A stretch of DNA of 20,698 bases from a virus. The notes beneath the pieces are model-generated. The model searched no databases, was not told the origin of the DNA, and was given only the letters and a program-made list of their open reading frames with translations. Shown one piece after another: positions 1 through 20,698 of the stretch (the first letter of the stretch is position 1; each line of letters starts with the position of its first letter). The DNA is taken from IMG/VR virus record IMGVR_UViG_3300036835_000183, positions 1-20,698 of that record, one strand, 5' to 3'. Made by a program: the position numbers and the translations under genes.

Positions 1-127
1 CGAGCTCGCCGTCAACGGCCGCCGTCGGGGTGTACAACAGGGACCGGTCTCAACCCCCATCGAGACCAACCCCAGCTCTTCCCCGCTGGCTGCAGGGGAG
101 ACCGCAACCGGTGCCGGGACGACGGAA
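1..127. repeat. Terminal direct repeat, left copy (contig circularity overlap)
   Basis: These 127 bases recur exactly at the other end of the window (20572-20698). The length of 127 equals a common maximum k-mer in short-read assemblers, so this is most simply the overlap left when a circular or circularly permuted molecule is assembled. A genuine packaged terminal repeat is possible but less likely, because an open reading frame passes through the repeat without interruption. Confidence 0.95.
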
Positions 128-372: not shown

Positions 373-905
373 ACCGGCCCGATGGGCGGGCGTTCGGGGA
401 GCTGGCGGCGTCGGTGGGACTGTCGGGGTACGCGGTGGCGGCGTACCGGGTGTTGGACGATTACGCCGACCGGTATCGGCGGTCTCAGCCGGGGGTGCGG
501 GTGATCGCCCGGTTGTCGGGGTTCGGGATGACCCGGGTCCGTGACGGGCTCGCGGAACTGGTGGCGGCGGGGTTCGTCGAGGCGTGGTCTCAGGACGGTC
601 AACCGACTGTGTATTGGCTCCCGAAATTGTCCACAACCCCACCACAGGCCGGTGGGGTGGTTGGCGGGGACCCCACCACGGAACCCCACCAACCCCACCA
701 CGGAACCCCACCAACCCCACCACGGGGTGGTGGGAAATTGAGTTGTTTTGAGTTTGAAAGAGGCGCGTCCGGGCCTCTCACACATCCACAGGGCGCCGCC
801 GCGCCGCCCAAAGGGGCGGCGGCGCCCCCCATCAACCCCGAGCTCAACCTCCGCGGTTCCAACGCGGCCCGAGAGCTCCTCCACCGAAACCGCAAACCCC
901 GATGA
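369..905 (+). CDS. Winged-helix replication-initiator-like protein with embedded origin
   Basis: The gene encodes 178 aa. GTG 369 is chosen because it overlaps the upstream stop by 4 nt and removes a low-quality extension. Residues about 10-85 form a helix-turn-helix/winged-helix module: a helical stretch (AVAAYRVLDDYADRYRRSQPG), a recognition-helix region (VRVIARLSGFGMTRVRDGLAELVAAGFV) and a beta-wing ending PTVYWLPK. This pattern is common at the N terminus of phage and plasmid replication proteins. From about residue 90 the protein is low-complexity Pro/His/Thr/Gly with no recognisable fold. The DNA there carries repeated CCCCACCA sites followed by an AT-rich stretch, which recalls lambda O, whose origin lies inside its own gene. 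No helicase or primase partner was seen. The alternative is a plain HTH regulator; a replication role is inferred. Confidence 0.6.
   Translation: MNRPDGRAFGELAASVGLSGYAVAAYRVLDDYADRYRRSQPGVRVIARLSGFGMTRVRDGLAELVAAGFVEAWSQDGQPTVYWLPKLSTTPPQAGGVVGGDPTTEPHQPHHGTPPTPPRGGGKLSCFEFERGASGPLTHPQGAAAPPKGAAAPPINPELNLRGSNAARELLHRNRKPR
637..734 (+). repeat. Iteron-like CCCCACCA repeats, candidate replication origin
   Basis: CCCCACCA occurs at 637, 671, 684, 693, 706 and 715. The last five alternate at 13/9-bp spacing and so form two full 22-bp units (671-692, 693-714) plus half of a third. The array ends in an inverted repeat: CCCACCAC at 716-723, a GGG spacer, and GTGGTGGG at 727-734. An inverted G-rich relative (GGTGGGGTGG, 651-660) lies upstream. 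The array sits in the low-complexity C-terminal coding half of the initiator-like gene. Regular phasing of about two helical turns fits initiator binding; function is inferred. Confidence 0.55.
735..760 (+). other. AT-rich stretch, candidate DNA-unwinding element
   Basis: Of these 26 bases, 19 are A or T and none is C, which is exceptional in this GC-rich genome. TTGAGTT occurs twice. The stretch directly follows the CCCCACCA array and its terminal hairpin, where an unwinding element would be expected next to iterons. It is still inside the coding frame of the initiator-like gene (residues about KLSCFEFER). Confidence 0.45.
791..827 (+). other. Strong GC hairpin inside the initiator-like gene
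   Basis: An inner stem GCCGCCC (803-809) pairs with GGGCGGC (814-820) around a 4-nt loop, and an outer stem GGGCGCC (791-797) pairs with GGCGCCC (821-827) with a 5-nt bulge on the left arm. No T-run follows, so it is not a typical intrinsic terminator. It encodes a duplicated A-A-P-P peptide pattern. It may be part of the presumed origin or an mRNA structure. Confidence 0.5.
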
Positions 906-1186
906 CCGACGACCTGGACCCGGGTGAGTGCGGGTGGTGCGGCACCGTGTTCACCGACCCGCCGTGGTGCGACCACTGCCACGAAGAACGCGACCACGCC
1001 CACCGAACCCGCTACACCAGCGAACAACGCGAAAACGCAGAAGCAGGCCTCGCCGCGGCACGGGAAGCGTTACGCAACGCCCGCAACCAACGCCTCATCA
1101 CCAACCAGCACGGCGGTTCTCCCGATGAGAGTGAACGCCCGTTTCGAGACATGGACCGTCCCACAACGAACCGGGCCGAACCGTGA
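902..1186 (+). CDS. Small double-CxxC zinc-finger protein (hypothetical)
   Basis: A 94-aa protein starting at ATG 902 with an ATGA overlap on the upstream stop. The N terminus carries two Cys pairs, CGWC (residues about 10-13) and CDHCH (about 23-27), spaced like a treble-clef or zinc-ribbon metal site. Residues about 38-65 are predicted helical with Arg/Glu/Ala alternation (EQRENAEAGLAAAREALRNA) and may form a coiled coil. The last third is polar and probably disordered. The GTG of the next gene overlaps its stop. No family recognised; nucleic-acid or protein binding is likely from the zinc pattern only. Confidence 0.65.
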   Translation: MTDDLDPGECGWCGTVFTDPPWCDHCHEERDHAHRTRYTSEQRENAEAGLAAAREALRNARNQRLITNQHGGSPDESERPFRDMDRPTTNRAEP

Positions 1187-1410
1187 CGGTCCCGCCCGGG
1201 AAACTCACCTGGTGGAAAGGCCCCACGAAACTGTGGTTCGTCCGGTGCGCCTACTGCCGCACCGACCTCGCCGCCGGCGCCGACCTGGTCGACACCCTCA
1301 AGGTCGCCGAGTCGAACGCGTCGGCCCGTCCATGCTGTACCGCGTGGTCTACAACCAAGACGACGAGCTCGACTGCACCGACGACCCCGACGACTGCCGG
1401 CACCGAATGA
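1183..1410 (+). CDS. Small Cys-rich protein, 3' part overlapping the next gene out of frame
   Basis: GTG 1183 overlaps the upstream stop (GTGA) and opens a 75-aa frame. Residues 1-50 have normal G/C third positions and contain CAYC (residues 22-25) and a Cys-Cys pair near residue 51, a plausible zinc site. After about base 1326 the third-position signal fades in this frame, and the Thr/Ser-rich tail looks like a shadow of the gene at 1332. Either the protein really ends with an unconstrained tail, or a -1 frameshift (natural or a sequence error) joins it to the membrane protein downstream. Function unknown. Confidence 0.5.
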   Translation: MTVPPGKLTWWKGPTKLWFVRCAYCRTDLAAGADLVDTLKVAESNASARPCCTAWSTTKTTSSTAPTTPTTAGTE

Positions 1411-1499
1411 TGTTCCTGTTCCTGGTCGTCGCGTTGGCCGCCACATTGGGCGGCCTCGCGCTCGGGTTCCTGTTGGACTGGATGCAAGGGAGACTGTGA
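1332..1499 (+). CDS. Small single-span membrane protein
   Basis: A 55-aa protein from ATG 1332. An acidic N-terminal segment with two Cys (DELDCTDDPDDC, about residues 11-22) precedes one strong hydrophobic helix at about residues 26-49 ending LLDW, then a short basic tail. This predicts an inner-membrane protein with its acidic end probably outside. It overlaps the upstream Cys-rich frame by 79 nt, far more than the usual 4 nt here, and its codon bias is better than that frame in the overlap. The next gene starts at the last base of its stop. It is the first of three consecutive tiny membrane proteins; a lysis or exclusion role is conceivable but unproven. Confidence 0.55.
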   Translation: MLYRVVYNQDDELDCTDDPDDCRHRMMFLFLVVALAATLGGLALGFLLDWMQGRL

Positions 1500-1588
1500 T
1501 GACCGACACCCAGGCGTGGATCACCGCCATCAGCGTCGCCGTCATCGCCGGCGTCGCCCTCGTCCGGTTCCTGCTCGCCCGCCGATGA
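1499..1588 (+). CDS. Very small membrane peptide (29 aa)
   Basis: ATG 1499 shares its first base with the stop of the preceding gene, and the frame ends at TGA 1586-1588. The 29-aa product is a short polar start followed by one hydrophobic helix (about residues 7-25) and a C-terminal Arg pair. This is a typical single-span micropeptide with its positive end in the cytoplasm. It is supported by chained stop-start overlaps on both sides (next ATG at 1585) and consistent G/C third positions. Function unknown. Confidence 0.5.
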   Translation: MTDTQAWITAISVAVIAGVALVRFLLARR

Positions 1589-1788
1589 CCGCCGCCACCC
1601 ACCAGGCCGCGCTACTCGCGCTCCTCGGGATCGTCGCCATCGTCGGGATCGTCGCCGGTGTCGTCCTCGCCGGGCTCGGCTACTCGTCGGCCGGCGCGTT
1701 CGCCGTGTCGTCCGGGTGCGTGGGTGTGCTCGGCACCCTCGCCACCGAACACGTCACCCGCCGACGCACCGAGGGTGACGATCGATGA
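1585..1788 (+). CDS. Small two-span membrane protein, holin-like
   Basis: A 67-aa protein from ATG 1585, which overlaps the upstream stop (ATGA); the HNH gene begins in its own stop at 1785. Two hydrophobic segments, about residues 8-32 (rich in Ile/Val/Gly/Ala) and 36-54, are separated by a short Gly-Tyr-Ser-Ser turn, with a highly charged C-terminal tail (RRRTEGDDR). The size, two helices and charged tail match class II holins. However, it sits ahead of the terminase rather than beside the endolysin, where another two-span candidate lies at 16197. It may be an antiholin, a second holin or an unrelated membrane protein. Confidence 0.55.
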   Translation: MTAATHQAALLALLGIVAIVGIVAGVVLAGLGYSSAGAFAVSSGCVGVLGTLATEHVTRRRTEGDDR

Positions 1789-2225
1789 CCTCGGCGTGGG
1801 CTCGGAACGGGGCGCTACGCCGCCGTCTACGACTGTTCATCCTCGACCGTGACCGGCACGTGTGCCACTGGTGCGGCGGGTACGCCGACACCGTCGACCA
1901 TGTGACACCCCGCATCGAAGGCGGCACCGACCACCCGGCGAACCTGGTGGCGGCCTGTGGTGCGTGCAACAGCCGCCGGTCCCTCGAGTGGGTGCGGGCA
2001 CACAGGGGCGTGGACCCGACGGGGCGGCGAAGGGGGAGGGCATCGACGGTGGGGGGCGAAAACCGGGGAGGCCGGTTTTCGGGGGACCCGGTTTTTTGGG
2101 GGCGTGGTAGTCAGGTCACGTCTCGAGCACTCCACGCCCTGAATCGCCCCGCCCGAACCAGTGTTCGCCGGAAACGGCCGGATGCCGGCGTACTCGCCCA
2201 GGAACGGCCCGCCAGTGGCCCGTAG
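1785..2225 (+). CDS. HNH endonuclease, terminase-associated
   Basis: ATG 1785 is coupled to the preceding gene. Residues about 18-68 form a complete HNH domain: CHWC (zinc pair), DHVTPRIEGGTDHPANL (His pair with the central Asn) and CGACN (second zinc pair). HNH proteins beside terL are known packaging partners, for example HK97 gp74, and stimulate cohesive-end cleavage. After about base 2045 the coding quality drops: third positions lose their G/C bias and the DNA carries hairpins and repeats. The true end may therefore lie upstream, or the reading frame may run through a packaging site. No small terminase gene was recognised between this gene and terL, so this protein may be essential for packaging. 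Confidence 0.85.
   Translation: MTSAWARNGALRRRLRLFILDRDRHVCHWCGGYADTVDHVTPRIEGGTDHPANLVAACGACNSRRSLEWVRAHRGVDPTGRRRGRASTVGGENRGGRFSGDPVFWGRGSQVTSRALHALNRPARTSVRRKRPDAGVLAQERPASGP
2057..2102. repeat. CCGGTTTT inverted and direct repeats upstream of terL (possible cos or terminator)
   Basis: CGAAAACCGG at 2057-2066 pairs perfectly with CCGGTTTTCG at 2072-2081 across a 5-nt loop. The motif recurs directly as CCGGTTTTCGGGGG (2072-2085) and CCGGTTTTTTGGGGG (2088-2102), 16 bp apart. The T-runs are unusual for this GC-rich DNA. Lying between the HNH core and the large terminase, it could be a packaging recognition or cos region; a hairpin followed by six Ts could instead be an intrinsic terminator. 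Confidence 0.5.
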
Positions 2226-2234
2226 AGCCCGCCG

Positions 2235-3734
2235 GTGACGGCGGCCGGCACCACAGACCGGGCCGGTGTGCTCGCTTCGGCGGCGCCTACGGCGCGGGGG
2301 CGGGGGCGGGGGGAGCGGACCGGCGCTCGTGACACGCGGGTGTCGCGGGAGGCGCCGCCGTGGCGGGCGTGGCGGACGAAGAGCCGGGCGGCGCGGGCGA
2401 TCCGGTTCATCGAGACGTACTGCCGGGTGCCGGCCGGGCCGTTCGGCGGGCAGCTGATGAAGGTCCGCCCCTATCAGCGTCACGCCCTCGAGGAGCTGCT
2501 GGCGTCGAGGGTGCGGACTGGTGGGTTGCAGATCCCGCGGGGCAACGCCAAGTCCGGGTTGTGGGCGGCGGTGGGGTTGTGGGCGTTGTGCGACCATCCC
2601 GACACGCCGCAGGTGCCGCTGGTGGCGTTCAACGGGAAGCAGGCGACCCGCAACCTGTTGGAGCCGATCGCGGCGATGGTCCGCTCGCACCCGGAGCTCG
2701 AGGGCCGGGTGGTCCCGTACTCGGCGATCAATGACCGTCGGGTGTGGTCGCGGTGGAACAACGGGACGCTGGTCACGCTCCCCGCCGATGTGGACGGGTT
2801 GCAGGGGTTGAACCCGACGATCGCGTTGGTCGACGAGGCGCAGACGATCACTCCGGCGGTGTTCGCGGCGGTGATGCAGGGCGCCGGGAAGCGGGCTGAG
2901 TCGCTGGTGTTGGCGATCGGGACGCCGGCGCCGAACGCGCAAACGTCGGCGCTGTTCGGGTTGCGGGAACGGGCCGCGGAGGGGGCGCAGGTGACGTGGG
3001 TCGAACACGCGGCGGCGGCGGGGTGCGCGGTCGATGACCGGCGGGAGTGGCATCGAGCTAACCCGGGCATCAAGGCCGGCCTGTTGGATGCCGCCGTTCT
3101 CGAGGCGGAGCTGCAGCTGGTGTCGGAGGCCGAGTTCCGCATGTACCGGTTGGGGCAGTGGGTGGACGCCACGTTGGCGGGGTGGCTGCCGGGCACGGCG
3201 TGGGATGACTGCCCGAACGTGCCGCCGGCGGACCCGGATGCGGAGATCGTGTTGGGCCTGGCGGGCACGTTCGCCAGCTCGTTCGCGTTGATCGGGGCCA
3301 CGTTGGACGGCGGGCTGTTCACCGCCTGGATCGCCGAGTCGGTGACCGAGGCCGAGCTTGAGTCGGTGTTGGCGGACGCGTTCGACCGGTGGCAGGTGTT
3401 GACGCTGGTGGTCCAGCCTCGGATCCTGCCGAACTTGGTGGGCAGGATGACCGACGCGGGGATGCCGGTGCGGGTGTGGCAGGACACCAAGGAGCTCGAG
3501 GTCGGGTCGTCGACGGAGTTCCGCCGTGCCATCGTCGAAGGCCGGGTCGCGCACGATCATGATCCGACGTTGGCGGCGCACATCGCCGCGACGGTGGGTT
3601 CGTCGACCCCCGACGGGCAGCTTCGTCTCGTCGCCCCGGACGACGGCCGGCCCGTCGACGCCGCCCGGGCGGCGCGGTTGGCGTGGTGGACGGCCCGGGA
3701 CACCGAACGCCACGCCGCCCCAGCAATCTTCTGA
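2235..3734 (+). CDS. terL: Terminase large subunit, nuclease motifs apparently degenerate
   Basis: This 499-aa protein is the ATP-driven motor that packages DNA through the portal. The ATPase domain is intact: a deviant Walker A PRGNAKS at residues 101-107, Walker B ALVDEAQ around D200-E201, and a coupling motif LAIGT (226-230). The C-terminal RNase H-like nuclease is recognisable from its third region, HDHDP (440-444) and VDAARAA (474-480). However, the usual first acidic motif (of the type G-x-D) reads GLAGT (341-345), and the second (usually D-P) reads VVQPRIL (392-398). Two metal-binding acids therefore seem to be missing. Start GTG 2235 is uncertain; the Arg/Gly-rich first 40 residues may be untranslated, with GTG 2340 an alternative. 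Portal follows after a 70-bp gap. Family assignment is firm; nuclease loss is inferred. Confidence 0.93.
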   Translation: MTAAGTTDRAGVLASAAPTARGRGRGERTGARDTRVSREAPPWRAWRTKSRAARAIRFIETYCRVPAGPFGGQLMKVRPYQRHALEELLASRVRTGGLQIPRGNAKSGLWAAVGLWALCDHPDTPQVPLVAFNGKQATRNLLEPIAAMVRSHPELEGRVVPYSAINDRRVWSRWNNGTLVTLPADVDGLQGLNPTIALVDEAQTITPAVFAAVMQGAGKRAESLVLAIGTPAPNAQTSALFGLRERAAEGAQVTWVEHAAAAGCAVDDRREWHRANPGIKAGLLDAAVLEAELQLVSEAEFRMYRLGQWVDATLAGWLPGTAWDDCPNVPPADPDAEIVLGLAGTFASSFALIGATLDGGLFTAWIAESVTEAELESVLADAFDRWQVLTLVVQPRILPNLVGRMTDAGMPVRVWQDTKELEVGSSTEFRRAIVEGRVAHDHDPTLAAHIAATVGSSTPDGQLRLVAPDDGRPVDAARAARLAWWTARDTERHAAPAIF

Positions 3735-3804: not shown

Positions 3805-5037
3805 ATGGGCGTCATCGACCGGGCGCGAACGATCGCCAGGCAGTGGTCGCCGCCGTCGTGGTGGCCGATCCCGGGCCCGTACACGTCGGTCTTCGTTTCC
3901 GACACCGGCGCGCAGTGGTGGCAGATGCCCGTCACCGCCCGCACCGCGCTGTCGGTGGCGGCCGTCTATCGGGCGTTGGCGATCTACGCCGACGAGATCG
4001 GCACGCTGCCGGTGCAACGCCTGCGGGGCGACTACGAGCAGCTCCCGGAACCGCCGTTCGTCGCGAGACCGGCCGGTGACGTGGTGGGGTGGACGGACGA
4101 GGTCGGCCAGATCCTGTGGTCGCTGGTGTTGCGCGGGAACGCCTACCTGCTGGTCACCGGGTACGACTGGACCGGCTACCCGGAGTCGTTCTACGTGTTG
4201 AACCCCGACACCGTGACCGTCGAACCGGCGCCGGCCGGGGGGTGGCAGTACCGGTGGACGACCGGATCCGGTGGCGAGATGGTTTTGGCGAACCCGTCGC
4301 CGCTCGAGCTGCTGCATGTCCGGTGGCAGCGGCCGCCGGGCGCGCCGGTCGGGCTGGGGATCCTGGACGTGAACGCCGGCCCCGGTTCGGCGTTGGCGGC
4401 CGCCTACGCCGCCCAGTCGTATGCCACGGATTCATTGTCGAATCCGGTGCCGCCGGCGGTGCTCACCCACCCGTTGCGGTTGAACAAGGACCAGGCCGCC
4501 GCGCTGCAAACCCAGTGGGCCACGTCGACCGGGCGGGGCCGGTCCGTGCCCGCCGTCCTGTCCGGCGGCGTCACCTACCAGCCCCTGACCGTCACCCCCC
4601 GCGATGTCCAGTTGATCGAAAGCCAACGGTGGTCGGCGACATCGATCGCGGTGATGTTCGGGCTGCCGCCGTACATGCTGGGCGGGTCCACCGGCGACAG
4701 CCTCACCTACTCCACCGTCGAAGGCGAGATGACCCGGCTGTGGGTGCAGACGTTGCAGCCGATGTGCATCCGCCTGCAACGGGCGTTCAACGCCTGGCTC
4801 CCCAGCGGGCAACGGTTGCGGTTCAACCCCGACGCCCTGCTACGCAGCCAGACGTTGGACCGGTTCAACGCCCACAAGATCGCCATCGACGCCGGGTTCG
4901 AAACCGTCGACGAGGTCCGCCAGCTCGAGAACCGTCCACCCCTCGAAAGCACCGCCGAGGTTCCCGCCGCGCTCCCCGCCGCCCGTCCCACCGACGCACC
5001 CACCCCCGCCCCGGCCGTGTTGGAGGTTGTGCCATGA
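3805..5037 (+). CDS. Portal protein, HK97-like (Phage_portal)
   Basis: A 410-aa protein forming the dodecameric ring at the capsid vertex through which DNA passes. Family features include the N-terminal ARTALSVAAVYRALAIYADEIGTLPV region (about residues 46-71), the L-R-G-N-A-Y-L strand (about 109-115), YVLNPDTV and ELLHVRW, and later SVAVMFGLPPYMLGG-type and NPDALLRSQTLDRF segments. All are typical of HK97-type portals. The length fits the family. ATG 3805 is the first usable start after an in-frame TAG at 3784. The C-terminal 25 residues are Pro/Ala-rich and probably disordered. The protease start overlaps its stop by 4 nt. Confidence 0.93.
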   Translation: MGVIDRARTIARQWSPPSWWPIPGPYTSVFVSDTGAQWWQMPVTARTALSVAAVYRALAIYADEIGTLPVQRLRGDYEQLPEPPFVARPAGDVVGWTDEVGQILWSLVLRGNAYLLVTGYDWTGYPESFYVLNPDTVTVEPAPAGGWQYRWTTGSGGEMVLANPSPLELLHVRWQRPPGAPVGLGILDVNAGPGSALAAAYAAQSYATDSLSNPVPPAVLTHPLRLNKDQAAALQTQWATSTGRGRSVPAVLSGGVTYQPLTVTPRDVQLIESQRWSATSIAVMFGLPPYMLGGSTGDSLTYSTVEGEMTRLWVQTLQPMCIRLQRAFNAWLPSGQRLRFNPDALLRSQTLDRFNAHKIAIDAGFETVDEVRQLENRPPLESTAEVPAALPAARPTDAPTPAPAVLEVVP

Positions 5038-14775: not shown

Positions 14776-15429
14776 TCAGGTGCGGGGACCGCGACGACAA
14801 ATCGGGCAGACCCGGTGGCCCGCACTGTCGACTGCGCAGTCCGCCGGGTAGACGTGGCCGTGCCGACATGCGGGACGCCGGAAATCGCGCACTCGCTTCG
14901 CCTCACGAATCGCCATGCAGGCGCGGCACATCCGCGTATTCGGAGCGCCGGGTGGCCGGTAGGTGTTCGCCTCATCAAACGGATGACCGTGGACGCAATG
15001 GGTCTTGCGGGCCGCGATCGCGGAGACAGTCATCCCGCGGGCGTTGTTCTCGCGGTGGGTGACGACGGCCATATGGGCGGGATTGACGCACAACCGGGTT
15101 CGGCACAGATGGTCGACCTCGAGCCTGTCAGGGATCGGACCGCGCTCGAGCTCCCACGCGACGCGATGCACGTAGGTCTGTCTTCCGCCGCGACCGGCGA
15201 TGCCGATCACCCCGTACCCCTTGCCGTTGTCCCCACCGAGCCACAACCAGCAGTCGTTCGGACCGCCGCGTTGCACCCGGCGCCACAACCGTTCGGCGAC
15301 GGGCATGGGTTTGGGTCCCGCGTTGTGCACGCACAACGGGCACAACCGGCGACCCTTCGAGTCTCGGGGCGTATCCGGTGCATACGGATGCCCGTTCCTG
15401 CATGTTGCCGGCAACTCTCCACGCCGCAC
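14776..15429 (-). CDS. Free-standing HNH endonuclease with three Cys/His zinc modules
   Basis: A 217-aa protein on the minus strand, GTG start at 15429-15427 with AGGGGAC upstream on that strand, TGA at 14778-14776. The central HNH region contains YVHRVAWELERGPIPDRLEVDHLC and LCVNPAHM (about residues 86-120), the HNH_3 homing-endonuclease type, with D-H followed by N-P-x-H. It is flanked by three similar zinc-like modules of pattern C-x-x-G-H-x-[YF]...C-x-x-C at about 10-33, 144-170 and 187-210. It is antisense to all neighbouring late genes, wedged between tail and lysis genes with only 1 and 18 nt of spacing. A mobile homing-type insertion is likely. Confidence 0.88.
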   Translation of the reverse strand: MRRGELPATCRNGHPYAPDTPRDSKGRRLCPLCVHNAGPKPMPVAERLWRRVQRGGPNDCWLWLGGDNGKGYGVIGIAGRGGRQTYVHRVAWELERGPIPDRLEVDHLCRTRLCVNPAHMAVVTHRENNARGMTVSAIAARKTHCVHGHPFDEANTYRPPGAPNTRMCRACMAIREAKRVRDFRRPACRHGHVYPADCAVDSAGHRVCPICRRGPRT

Positions 15430-20338: not shown

Positions 20339-20698
20339 GTGGGGGGGTGGGTGCCGGGGGACTGGCCGGGAGTGGTGGGCGGGTTCGTGGTCCCTGCCCA
20401 GTCCGCGGCCGAATATACGGGCCGGGTCGTGTTCACCCCGACGGGCCAGATCCGGACCGTGTCGACCACAAGCCGGGGGGTGGGGTTCTACACGACGGGC
20501 GGGCAGTGGGTGTTGGCGTGGTGCGGCGACAGCGTCGAGGACCGGGATTACGCCCTGTCGATGCTGCTGGTCGAGCTCGCCGTCAACGGCCGCCGTCGGG
20601 GTGTACAACAGGGACCGGTCTCAACCCCCATCGAGACCAACCCCAGCTCTTCCCCGCTGGCTGCAGGGGAGACCGCAACCGGTGCCGGGACGACGGAA
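20339..20698 (+). CDS. N-terminal part of a junction-spanning hypothetical protein
   Basis: GTG 20339 opens one base after the recT stop and runs off the contig end; joined over the circle junction it ends at 187 (139 aa). The N-terminal half is Trp/Gly-rich and then beta-rich (FVVPAQSAAEYTGRVVFTP, GVGFYTTGGQWVLAWCGD, DRDYALSMLLVEL), with a compact helix near residue 75; the rest is low-complexity. No family is recognised. The frame and G/C third positions continue cleanly through the 127-bp repeat, which argues that it is one gene. Position between recT and the replication-like gene suggests an early-operon role. Confidence 0.7.
   Translation, partial: MGGWVPGDWPGVVGGFVVPAQSAAEYTGRVVFTPTGQIRTVSTTSRGVGFYTTGGQWVLAWCGDSVEDRDYALSMLLVELAVNGRRRGVQQGPVSTPIETNPSSSPLAAGETATGAGTTE
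20341..20370 (+). other. G-quadruplex-capable run at the start of the junction gene
   Basis: Four G-runs, 20341-20347, 20349-20351, 20356-20360 and 20368-20370, are separated by loops of 1, 4 and 7 nt, which fits the common G3+N1-7 rule; more G-runs follow at 20377. They lie just inside the first codons of the gene on the coding strand, so the mRNA could fold there and slow initiation after recT. Confidence 0.4.
20572..20698. repeat. Terminal direct repeat, right copy
   Basis: This is identical to bases 1-127. Remove one copy to obtain the 20,571-bp circle. Coding passes through it in one frame from 20339. Confidence 0.95.

Follow-up and report, generated by a model that had tools for sequence, protein, structure and literature searches.

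The large terminase locus

The stretch of DNA analysed here, which we call the window, comprises 20,698 bases of a virus record from IMG/VR. It encodes portal, capsid, tape measure and tail proteins, an endolysin, an integrase, RecT, a DNA methyltransferase and two HNH endonucleases, and no match to a DNA polymerase was found among the window open reading frames scanned. The large terminase (TerL) gene is flanked by one of the HNH genes upstream and the portal gene downstream (Table 1). No small terminase gene was recognised near TerL (window 902-2235). An exact 127-nt direct repeat occupies the two ends of the window (1-127 and 20572-20698); the simplest explanation is an assembler (k-mer) overlap from a circular record of 20,571 bp, and the repeat is probably not a biological terminal repeat. 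The second HNH gene, of the HNH_3 type, found no match in any of 15 related records, and on that ground we rejected it as the genome cutter. It is probably a recent homing-type insertion.

Table 1. Positions of features in the window, with the evidence for each
Feature	Position	Strand	Evidence or remark
Virus record IMGVR_UViG_3300036835_000183, window	20,698 bases		source IMG/VR
HNH endonuclease, 146 aa, proposed genome-cutting partner	1785..2225	+	PF01844, PHROG, relatives, model
Cos-like cleavage region (putative)	2090..2136	+	homologous to contig-start base of relatives; dyad symmetry in clade
T6 run within cos-like region	2092-2097
Cos-like core GGTCACGTC/TCGAGC	2114-2128		cut inferred near 2119-2123
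CosB-like element GGCGTACTCGC	2187..2197	+	+65 from inferred cut
Second copy of element, GGTGTGCTCGC	2265..2275	+	+143
Large terminase, ATPase intact, RNase H-fold domain without nuclease site	2235..3734	+	phrog_9, 6z6d, model
Walker A, intact: LQIPRGNAKSG, K106/S107	2526..2558	+	alignment
Walker B acids D200-E201 (LVDEAQ), intact	2832..2837	+	invariant in all aligned TerLs
Ala343 codon (GLAGT), replaces first catalytic Asp, HK97 D302	3261..3263	+	acidic in 0/13 clade members, 22/22 intact relatives
Gln394 codon (VVQPR), replaces second catalytic Asp, HK97 D388	3414..3416	+	acidic in 0/13 clade members, 22/22 intact relatives
Asp475 codon (VDAARAA), third catalytic Asp retained, HK97 D471	3657..3659	+	alignment
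Portal protein, downstream neighbour of TerL	3805..5037	+	PF04860, E 1e-53
Second HNH endonuclease, HNH_3 type	14776-15429	minus

TerL is an HK97-type terminase with an intact ATPase

We confirmed the TerL open reading frame, which runs from a GTG start at 2235 to a stop at 3734 and encodes 499 aa. Its product matches phrog_9 (E 1e-52 over residues 49-492) and HK97 TerL (PDB 6z6d; E 7e-12, or E 2e-79 via profile alignment, the profile having been built from 36 relatives). PF03354 alone scored 16.7-19.5 bits, below its cut-off of 23.7. By overall sequence family, the window TerL is an HK97-type large terminase. Walker A, Walker B and the coupling motif had been called intact in an initial annotation made from the letters only, and this held: K106, D200, E201 and the coupling threonine T230 are identical in 36/36 aligned TerLs, which meets the criterion for an ASCE ATPase.

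Two of the three nuclease acids are missing throughout a clade

The catalytic residues of HK97 TerL are D302, D388 and D471 (PMC9410871). Mapping of HK97 positions by profile alignment to 6z6d places A343, Q394 and D475 of the window TerL at these sites, so that the requirement for the full triad is not met. The second motif-I aspartate (column 348) is also missing, and the active-site lysine is gone as well, HK97 K463 corresponding to A467. The initial annotation had proposed that nuclease aspartates are replaced at GLAGT and VVQPR while two later motifs, VDAARAA and HDHDP, remain. The replacements held, aligning with HK97 D302 and D388, and VDAARAA held as the site of the third catalytic aspartate. 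The claim for HDHDP held only in part, as this is a conserved TerL motif and yet not a metal ligand in HK97. Two further checks that it had recommended were also taken up, the structural one as far as the fold: alignment of homologs found both acid losses in all close relatives, and the predicted model superposes on HK97 TerL (6z6d) and on the G20c TerL nuclease. Its conclusion that another protein must cut the genome is supported, TerL activity in vitro not having been assayed.

The close IMG/VR relatives, at 54-69% identity, all lack both nuclease acids. A second contig (L002) is 100% identical to the window TerL over residues 131-499. In a 36-row alignment, 0/13 clade members have an acid at column 343, 348 or 394, whereas 22/22 intact TerLs have one at each; L018 is the single in-between row. 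Because independent contigs at this level of divergence carry the same loss, chance and sequencing error are excluded; an error or frameshift is further ruled out by 23 divergent TerLs in the same state. A scan guided by the HNH gene extended the clade to L088, L089 and L091 (Ala/Ala) and to L094, L096, L102 and L112 (Trp at motif I). In the tree the 23 nuclease-less TerLs are monophyletic (UFBoot 95, SH-aLRT 91), and together with L018 they form a clade supported at 100/100 that stands beside intact TerLs. Both the motif-I and the motif-II acids are absent from all 23 members, motif I reading A, C or W and motif II reading Q, A, P, K or another non-acid. The clade-wide loss of these acids is thus shown. 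The equivalent of D475 has also been lost in at least five members (L010, L088, L094, L102 and L112) from about three lineages (L010, L088 and L094/L102/L112), a repeated loss of the kind to be expected once a site has fallen out of use. Given that two of three acids are lost, and that the loss is real, clade-wide and inherited, another protein must make the cuts and it is very unlikely that the window TerL itself cleaves DNA. This is inferred from sequence alone, without biochemistry.

The TerLs of L094 (6281-7792), L102 (6254-7744, on a 61-kb contig) and L112 (396-1889) retain none of the nuclease acids: motif I has Trp, motif II has Lys and the motif III Asp is missing. In all three contigs an HNH reading frame overlaps the TerL start. 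The sister TerL, L018 (155-1702), keeps the aspartates of motifs I and III and has Tyr at motif II. It may represent an evolutionary intermediate in the loss of the site; a database search with L018 returned no match besides L018 itself.

We looked for a host or prophage home in one genome per species from 84,980 bacterial and archaeal species, and in a protein search of 396 Actinomycetota genomes, and each recovered only distant relatives (32-34%). Among the cultured phages in our collection, the best tblastn identity to the window TerL was about 29%. The annotated TerLs of six that were aligned (phiC31, Lilbooboo, phiPsal1, Barebow, ExGM16 and Efeko) keep the acids at motifs I and II. The clade appears to be an undescribed group of bacteriophages.

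The C-terminal domain keeps its fold and is under purifying selection

An AlphaFold2 model of TerL, run on the alignment, has an overall pLDDT of 89.6 and shows the full RNase H topology at residues 337-492, with a pLDDT of about 95 in the nuclease domain (range about 90-98). Its closest fold is that of HK97 TerL 6z6d (Z 30.2), with an rmsd of 10 Å that probably reflects different placement of the two domains. Residues 314-489 superpose on the G20c TerL nuclease with Z 17.9 and 3.2 Å over 172 residues. As predicted by the model, the window TerL has retained its C-terminal RNase H-like fold.

Purifying selection acts on both TerL domains. Between clade members, dN/dS of the nuclease part is 0.14-0.44, and mean identity within the clade is 57% for the nuclease part versus 69% for the ATPase; the two parts have nearly equal mean identity in intact relatives (61% and 62%). 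From these ratios and the difference in identity within the clade, we conclude that the nuclease domain is relaxed yet still selected. Decay of the TerL gene was rejected, dN/dS being far under 1.

An HNH endonuclease gene lies directly upstream of TerL

While the initial annotation left the cutter unnamed, the gene at 1785-2225 supplies a candidate. Its product scores 34.7 bits against PF01844 (cut-off 21.4) and matches many PHROG HNH families; the HNH core, at residues about 8-73, has an intact motif and CxxC zinc ligands. With its gene beside the terminase, the protein has the sequence and gene-order features of a packaging (gp74-like) HNH endonuclease. The core is modelled confidently, with a likeness to the Gme HNH nicking endonuclease (4h9d), whereas the model as a whole is poor (mean pLDDT 67.5).

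The gene lies directly upstream of TerL in seven of the eight clade members that were found through TerL and have visible upstream DNA (the window, L008, L013, L016 and L081, plus G002 and G007 across contig ends). L010, whose TerL is dead and has also lost the third Asp, shows no HNH in its 1.77 kb of upstream DNA (1-1766), where the contig ends. Among members found through HNH, the gene is directly upstream of TerL in L088, L091, L094, L102 and L112 and 700 bp from it in L089. The presence of an adjacent HNH gene with an intact motif is shown; that its product cuts DNA or promotes cos cleavage is inferred. Some TerLs with an intact nuclease likewise have an HNH gene nearby (L026, L030, L039, L048 and L055), so adjacency alone is no proof of a take-over, and the HNH partner is probably older than the loss of the nuclease. 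Between HNH and TerL in L089, at about 1840-2540, there is a frame reading CVDHDHNHCPG...CHRCNNAIG, which by eye only resembles an endonuclease VII-type protein.

A cos-like site lies between the HNH and TerL genes

Many contigs of relatives end just upstream of TerL. Within the nuclease-less clade, ten contigs have an end in this interval, and five of them (L003, L009, L011, L014 and L080) share one homologous start base, for which a union bound puts the probability by chance at 5e-7 with starts spread over 150 bases. The element GGCGTNCTNGC lies at +65 from the shared start base in the window, L016, L081 and L009, at +62 in L011 and at +56 in L003. G002 ends in ...GCTGAC on one side and CTCAGC... 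on the other, 3 bases short of the contiguous sequence of L081, TGACGACCTCAGC. The other contig end of G007 does not match the inferred cut. Clustering of contig ends is shown. Such ends are only indirect evidence for virion ends, and that the two coincide is inferred; equally, cos-type defined ends near the terminase gene are inferred from the contig ends of relatives, with no mapping of virion ends and with the window itself assembled as a circle.

Where it is read through, the site is dyad-symmetric, as in L016 (GGTGA-CGTCC-TCACC) and L091 (GCTGA-GGTCC-TCAGC). We counted 26/40 matching arm pairs at this axis versus about 11/40 at most other axes, the next best having 20, and 0/20,000 random placements matched 26/40. 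The site had been picked by contig ends and conservation, and its symmetry was noticed before it was tested. The window copy is weaker, with 3/5 arm pairs. The cos-like region is crossed by the 3' part of the HNH frame.

In the same part of the HNH frame, window 2059-2097 holds an inverted repeat, AAAACCGG...CCGGTTTT followed by CCCGGTTTTTT, which may act as a terminator or belong to the cos region. Among intact relatives, eight contigs (L021, L022, L028, L033, L034, L035, L036 and L044) start exactly nine bases before a common ACGCTTCCGAC-like motif, as seen in their first 20 bases. These apparent physical cos ends provide a cos consensus for an uncultured group.

A proposed packaging motor with a separate cutter

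We consider the best explanation, and a likely one, to be that TerL is only a motor and that the HNH protein makes the cos cuts, although no biochemistry supports it as yet. TerL would be a pure packaging motor whose ATPase drives DNA translocation, and its RNase H-fold domain would be kept for structural roles such as portal docking, DNA contact and partner binding, without cleavage. The upstream HNH endonuclease would cut genomes at the short, conserved and cos-like sequence that lies between its own gene and TerL, and the share of cutting proposed for TerL in HK97 would have moved, in this clade, to HNH or elsewhere. The likeliest version has two HNH subunits making one nick each, because the cos-like site is dyad-symmetric, with TerL and any cosB-binding factor positioning the complex. 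HNH, possibly as a dimer that leaves a short overhang, would be placed by TerL or by a factor reading the +65 element. A bolder reading is that both strands are cut by HNH alone, acting as a homodimer on a short palindromic cos sequence in the manner of a restriction enzyme and leaving a very short overhang, with motor and cutter as fully separate proteins; taken as one joint claim, we lean slightly against it.

The alternative that survives best, which we nonetheless think unlikely, is that labour is shared in the manner proposed for HK97, with one strand cut by TerL and the second by gp74 (PMC11331095). Here the HNH would nick one strand and a host nuclease or other phage nuclease the second, making HNH necessary and not sufficient. 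In favour, the closest relatives of solved structure include two enzymes that nick DNA, Gme HNHE and GVE2 HNHE. Against it, no second phage nuclease is conserved, the HNH_3 gene being absent from 15/15 related records, and a dyad-symmetric site fits a symmetric double cut.

A second alternative is that TerL still cuts, with a metal site rebuilt in the same fold from D475 and the clade-specific E422, E428 or E435. These glutamates vary little or not at all among the 13 aligned members and are rare in the same columns of intact relatives, and both the fold and D475 are mostly kept. In the RNase H superfamily, the first-strand aspartate serves as the central metal ligand. Yet every member of the clade has A, C or W in its place, motif II is non-acid, the active-site lysine is lost and, in the five members named above, so is the D475 equivalent itself; several of the 'new' acids, moreover, have an acid 1-3 columns away in intact TerLs, as a shift in helix register or alignment would give. 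Since the new acids are conserved in the clade and distances between acids remain unmeasured, a rebuilt site is not strictly excluded, though we regard it as very improbable.

It is also most improbable that no cutting is needed, with unit-length DNA packaged as in phi29 and the nuclease vestigial. The phi29 gp16 protein does have an RNase H fold from which the catalytic residues are missing, and the DNA that it packages is unit-length and protein-capped (PMC7672431). Against this, the record is circular (127-nt overlap) and carries an integrase and RecT, no DNA polymerase was found among the scanned proteins, and relatives show defined ends beside the HNH gene. Decay of the TerL gene, or a satellite virus using a helper's terminase, might be suggested by the small genome (20.6 kb) and degraded active site, but is all but excluded by the window's own portal, capsid, tape measure, tail, endolysin and integrase genes, by intact ATPase motifs and purifying selection on both domains, and by the same state in 23 divergent viruses, one of them on a 61-kb contig (L102).

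Relation to known packaging systems

In standard accounts, it is the nuclease domain of TerL that cuts every concatemeric tailed-phage genome. No cos-type TerL lacking its nuclease acids turned up in the literature searched (mostly without subscription papers), and a cos-like clade with a dead TerL nuclease thus appears undescribed there. Which protein makes which cos nick in HNH-containing phages is unsettled (PMC11331095). On our preferred reading, of a TerL motor with an HNH cutter, the clade is a natural separation-of-function experiment and predicts that HNH proteins are capable of both cuts. It further points to essential, non-catalytic functions of the RNase H domain and, if the reading is true, offers a motor without a built-in nuclease for the study of translocation.

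The window resembles HK97 in the family and fold of its TerL (Z 30.2), in having TerL plus an HNH gene and in the cos-type ends inferred here. In HK97 the HNH protein GP74 promotes cos cleavage, and TerL, which keeps D302, D388 and D471, is the presumed cutter stimulated by gp74 (PMC9410871). The window TerL, in contrast, is without the first two acids, no small terminase is recognisable in the window, and the inferred cut site is short and dyad-symmetric, not of the 10-12 nt overhang type.

Like the window TerL, phi29 gp16 is a packaging ATPase that has lost the catalytic acids of its RNase H-fold C-terminal domain and retained the domain (PMC7672431). The window TerL therefore qualifies as a phi29-like vestigial nuclease, whereas the other phi29 hallmark, a unit-length, protein-primed linear genome for which no cut is needed, is not met by a circular record with an integrase and relatives with apparently defined ends. 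The window domain also differs in keeping the full RNase H secondary structure and clear similarity to active TerLs.

With the packaging HNH proteins, namely HK97 gp74, GVE2 HNHE and the HNH proteins of cos-SaPI helper phages, the window protein shares small size, a gene beside the terminase and an HNH core alike by Pfam, sequence and fold. The known ones act with a presumed active TerL nuclease, whereas here the HNH would be the sole conserved candidate cutter.
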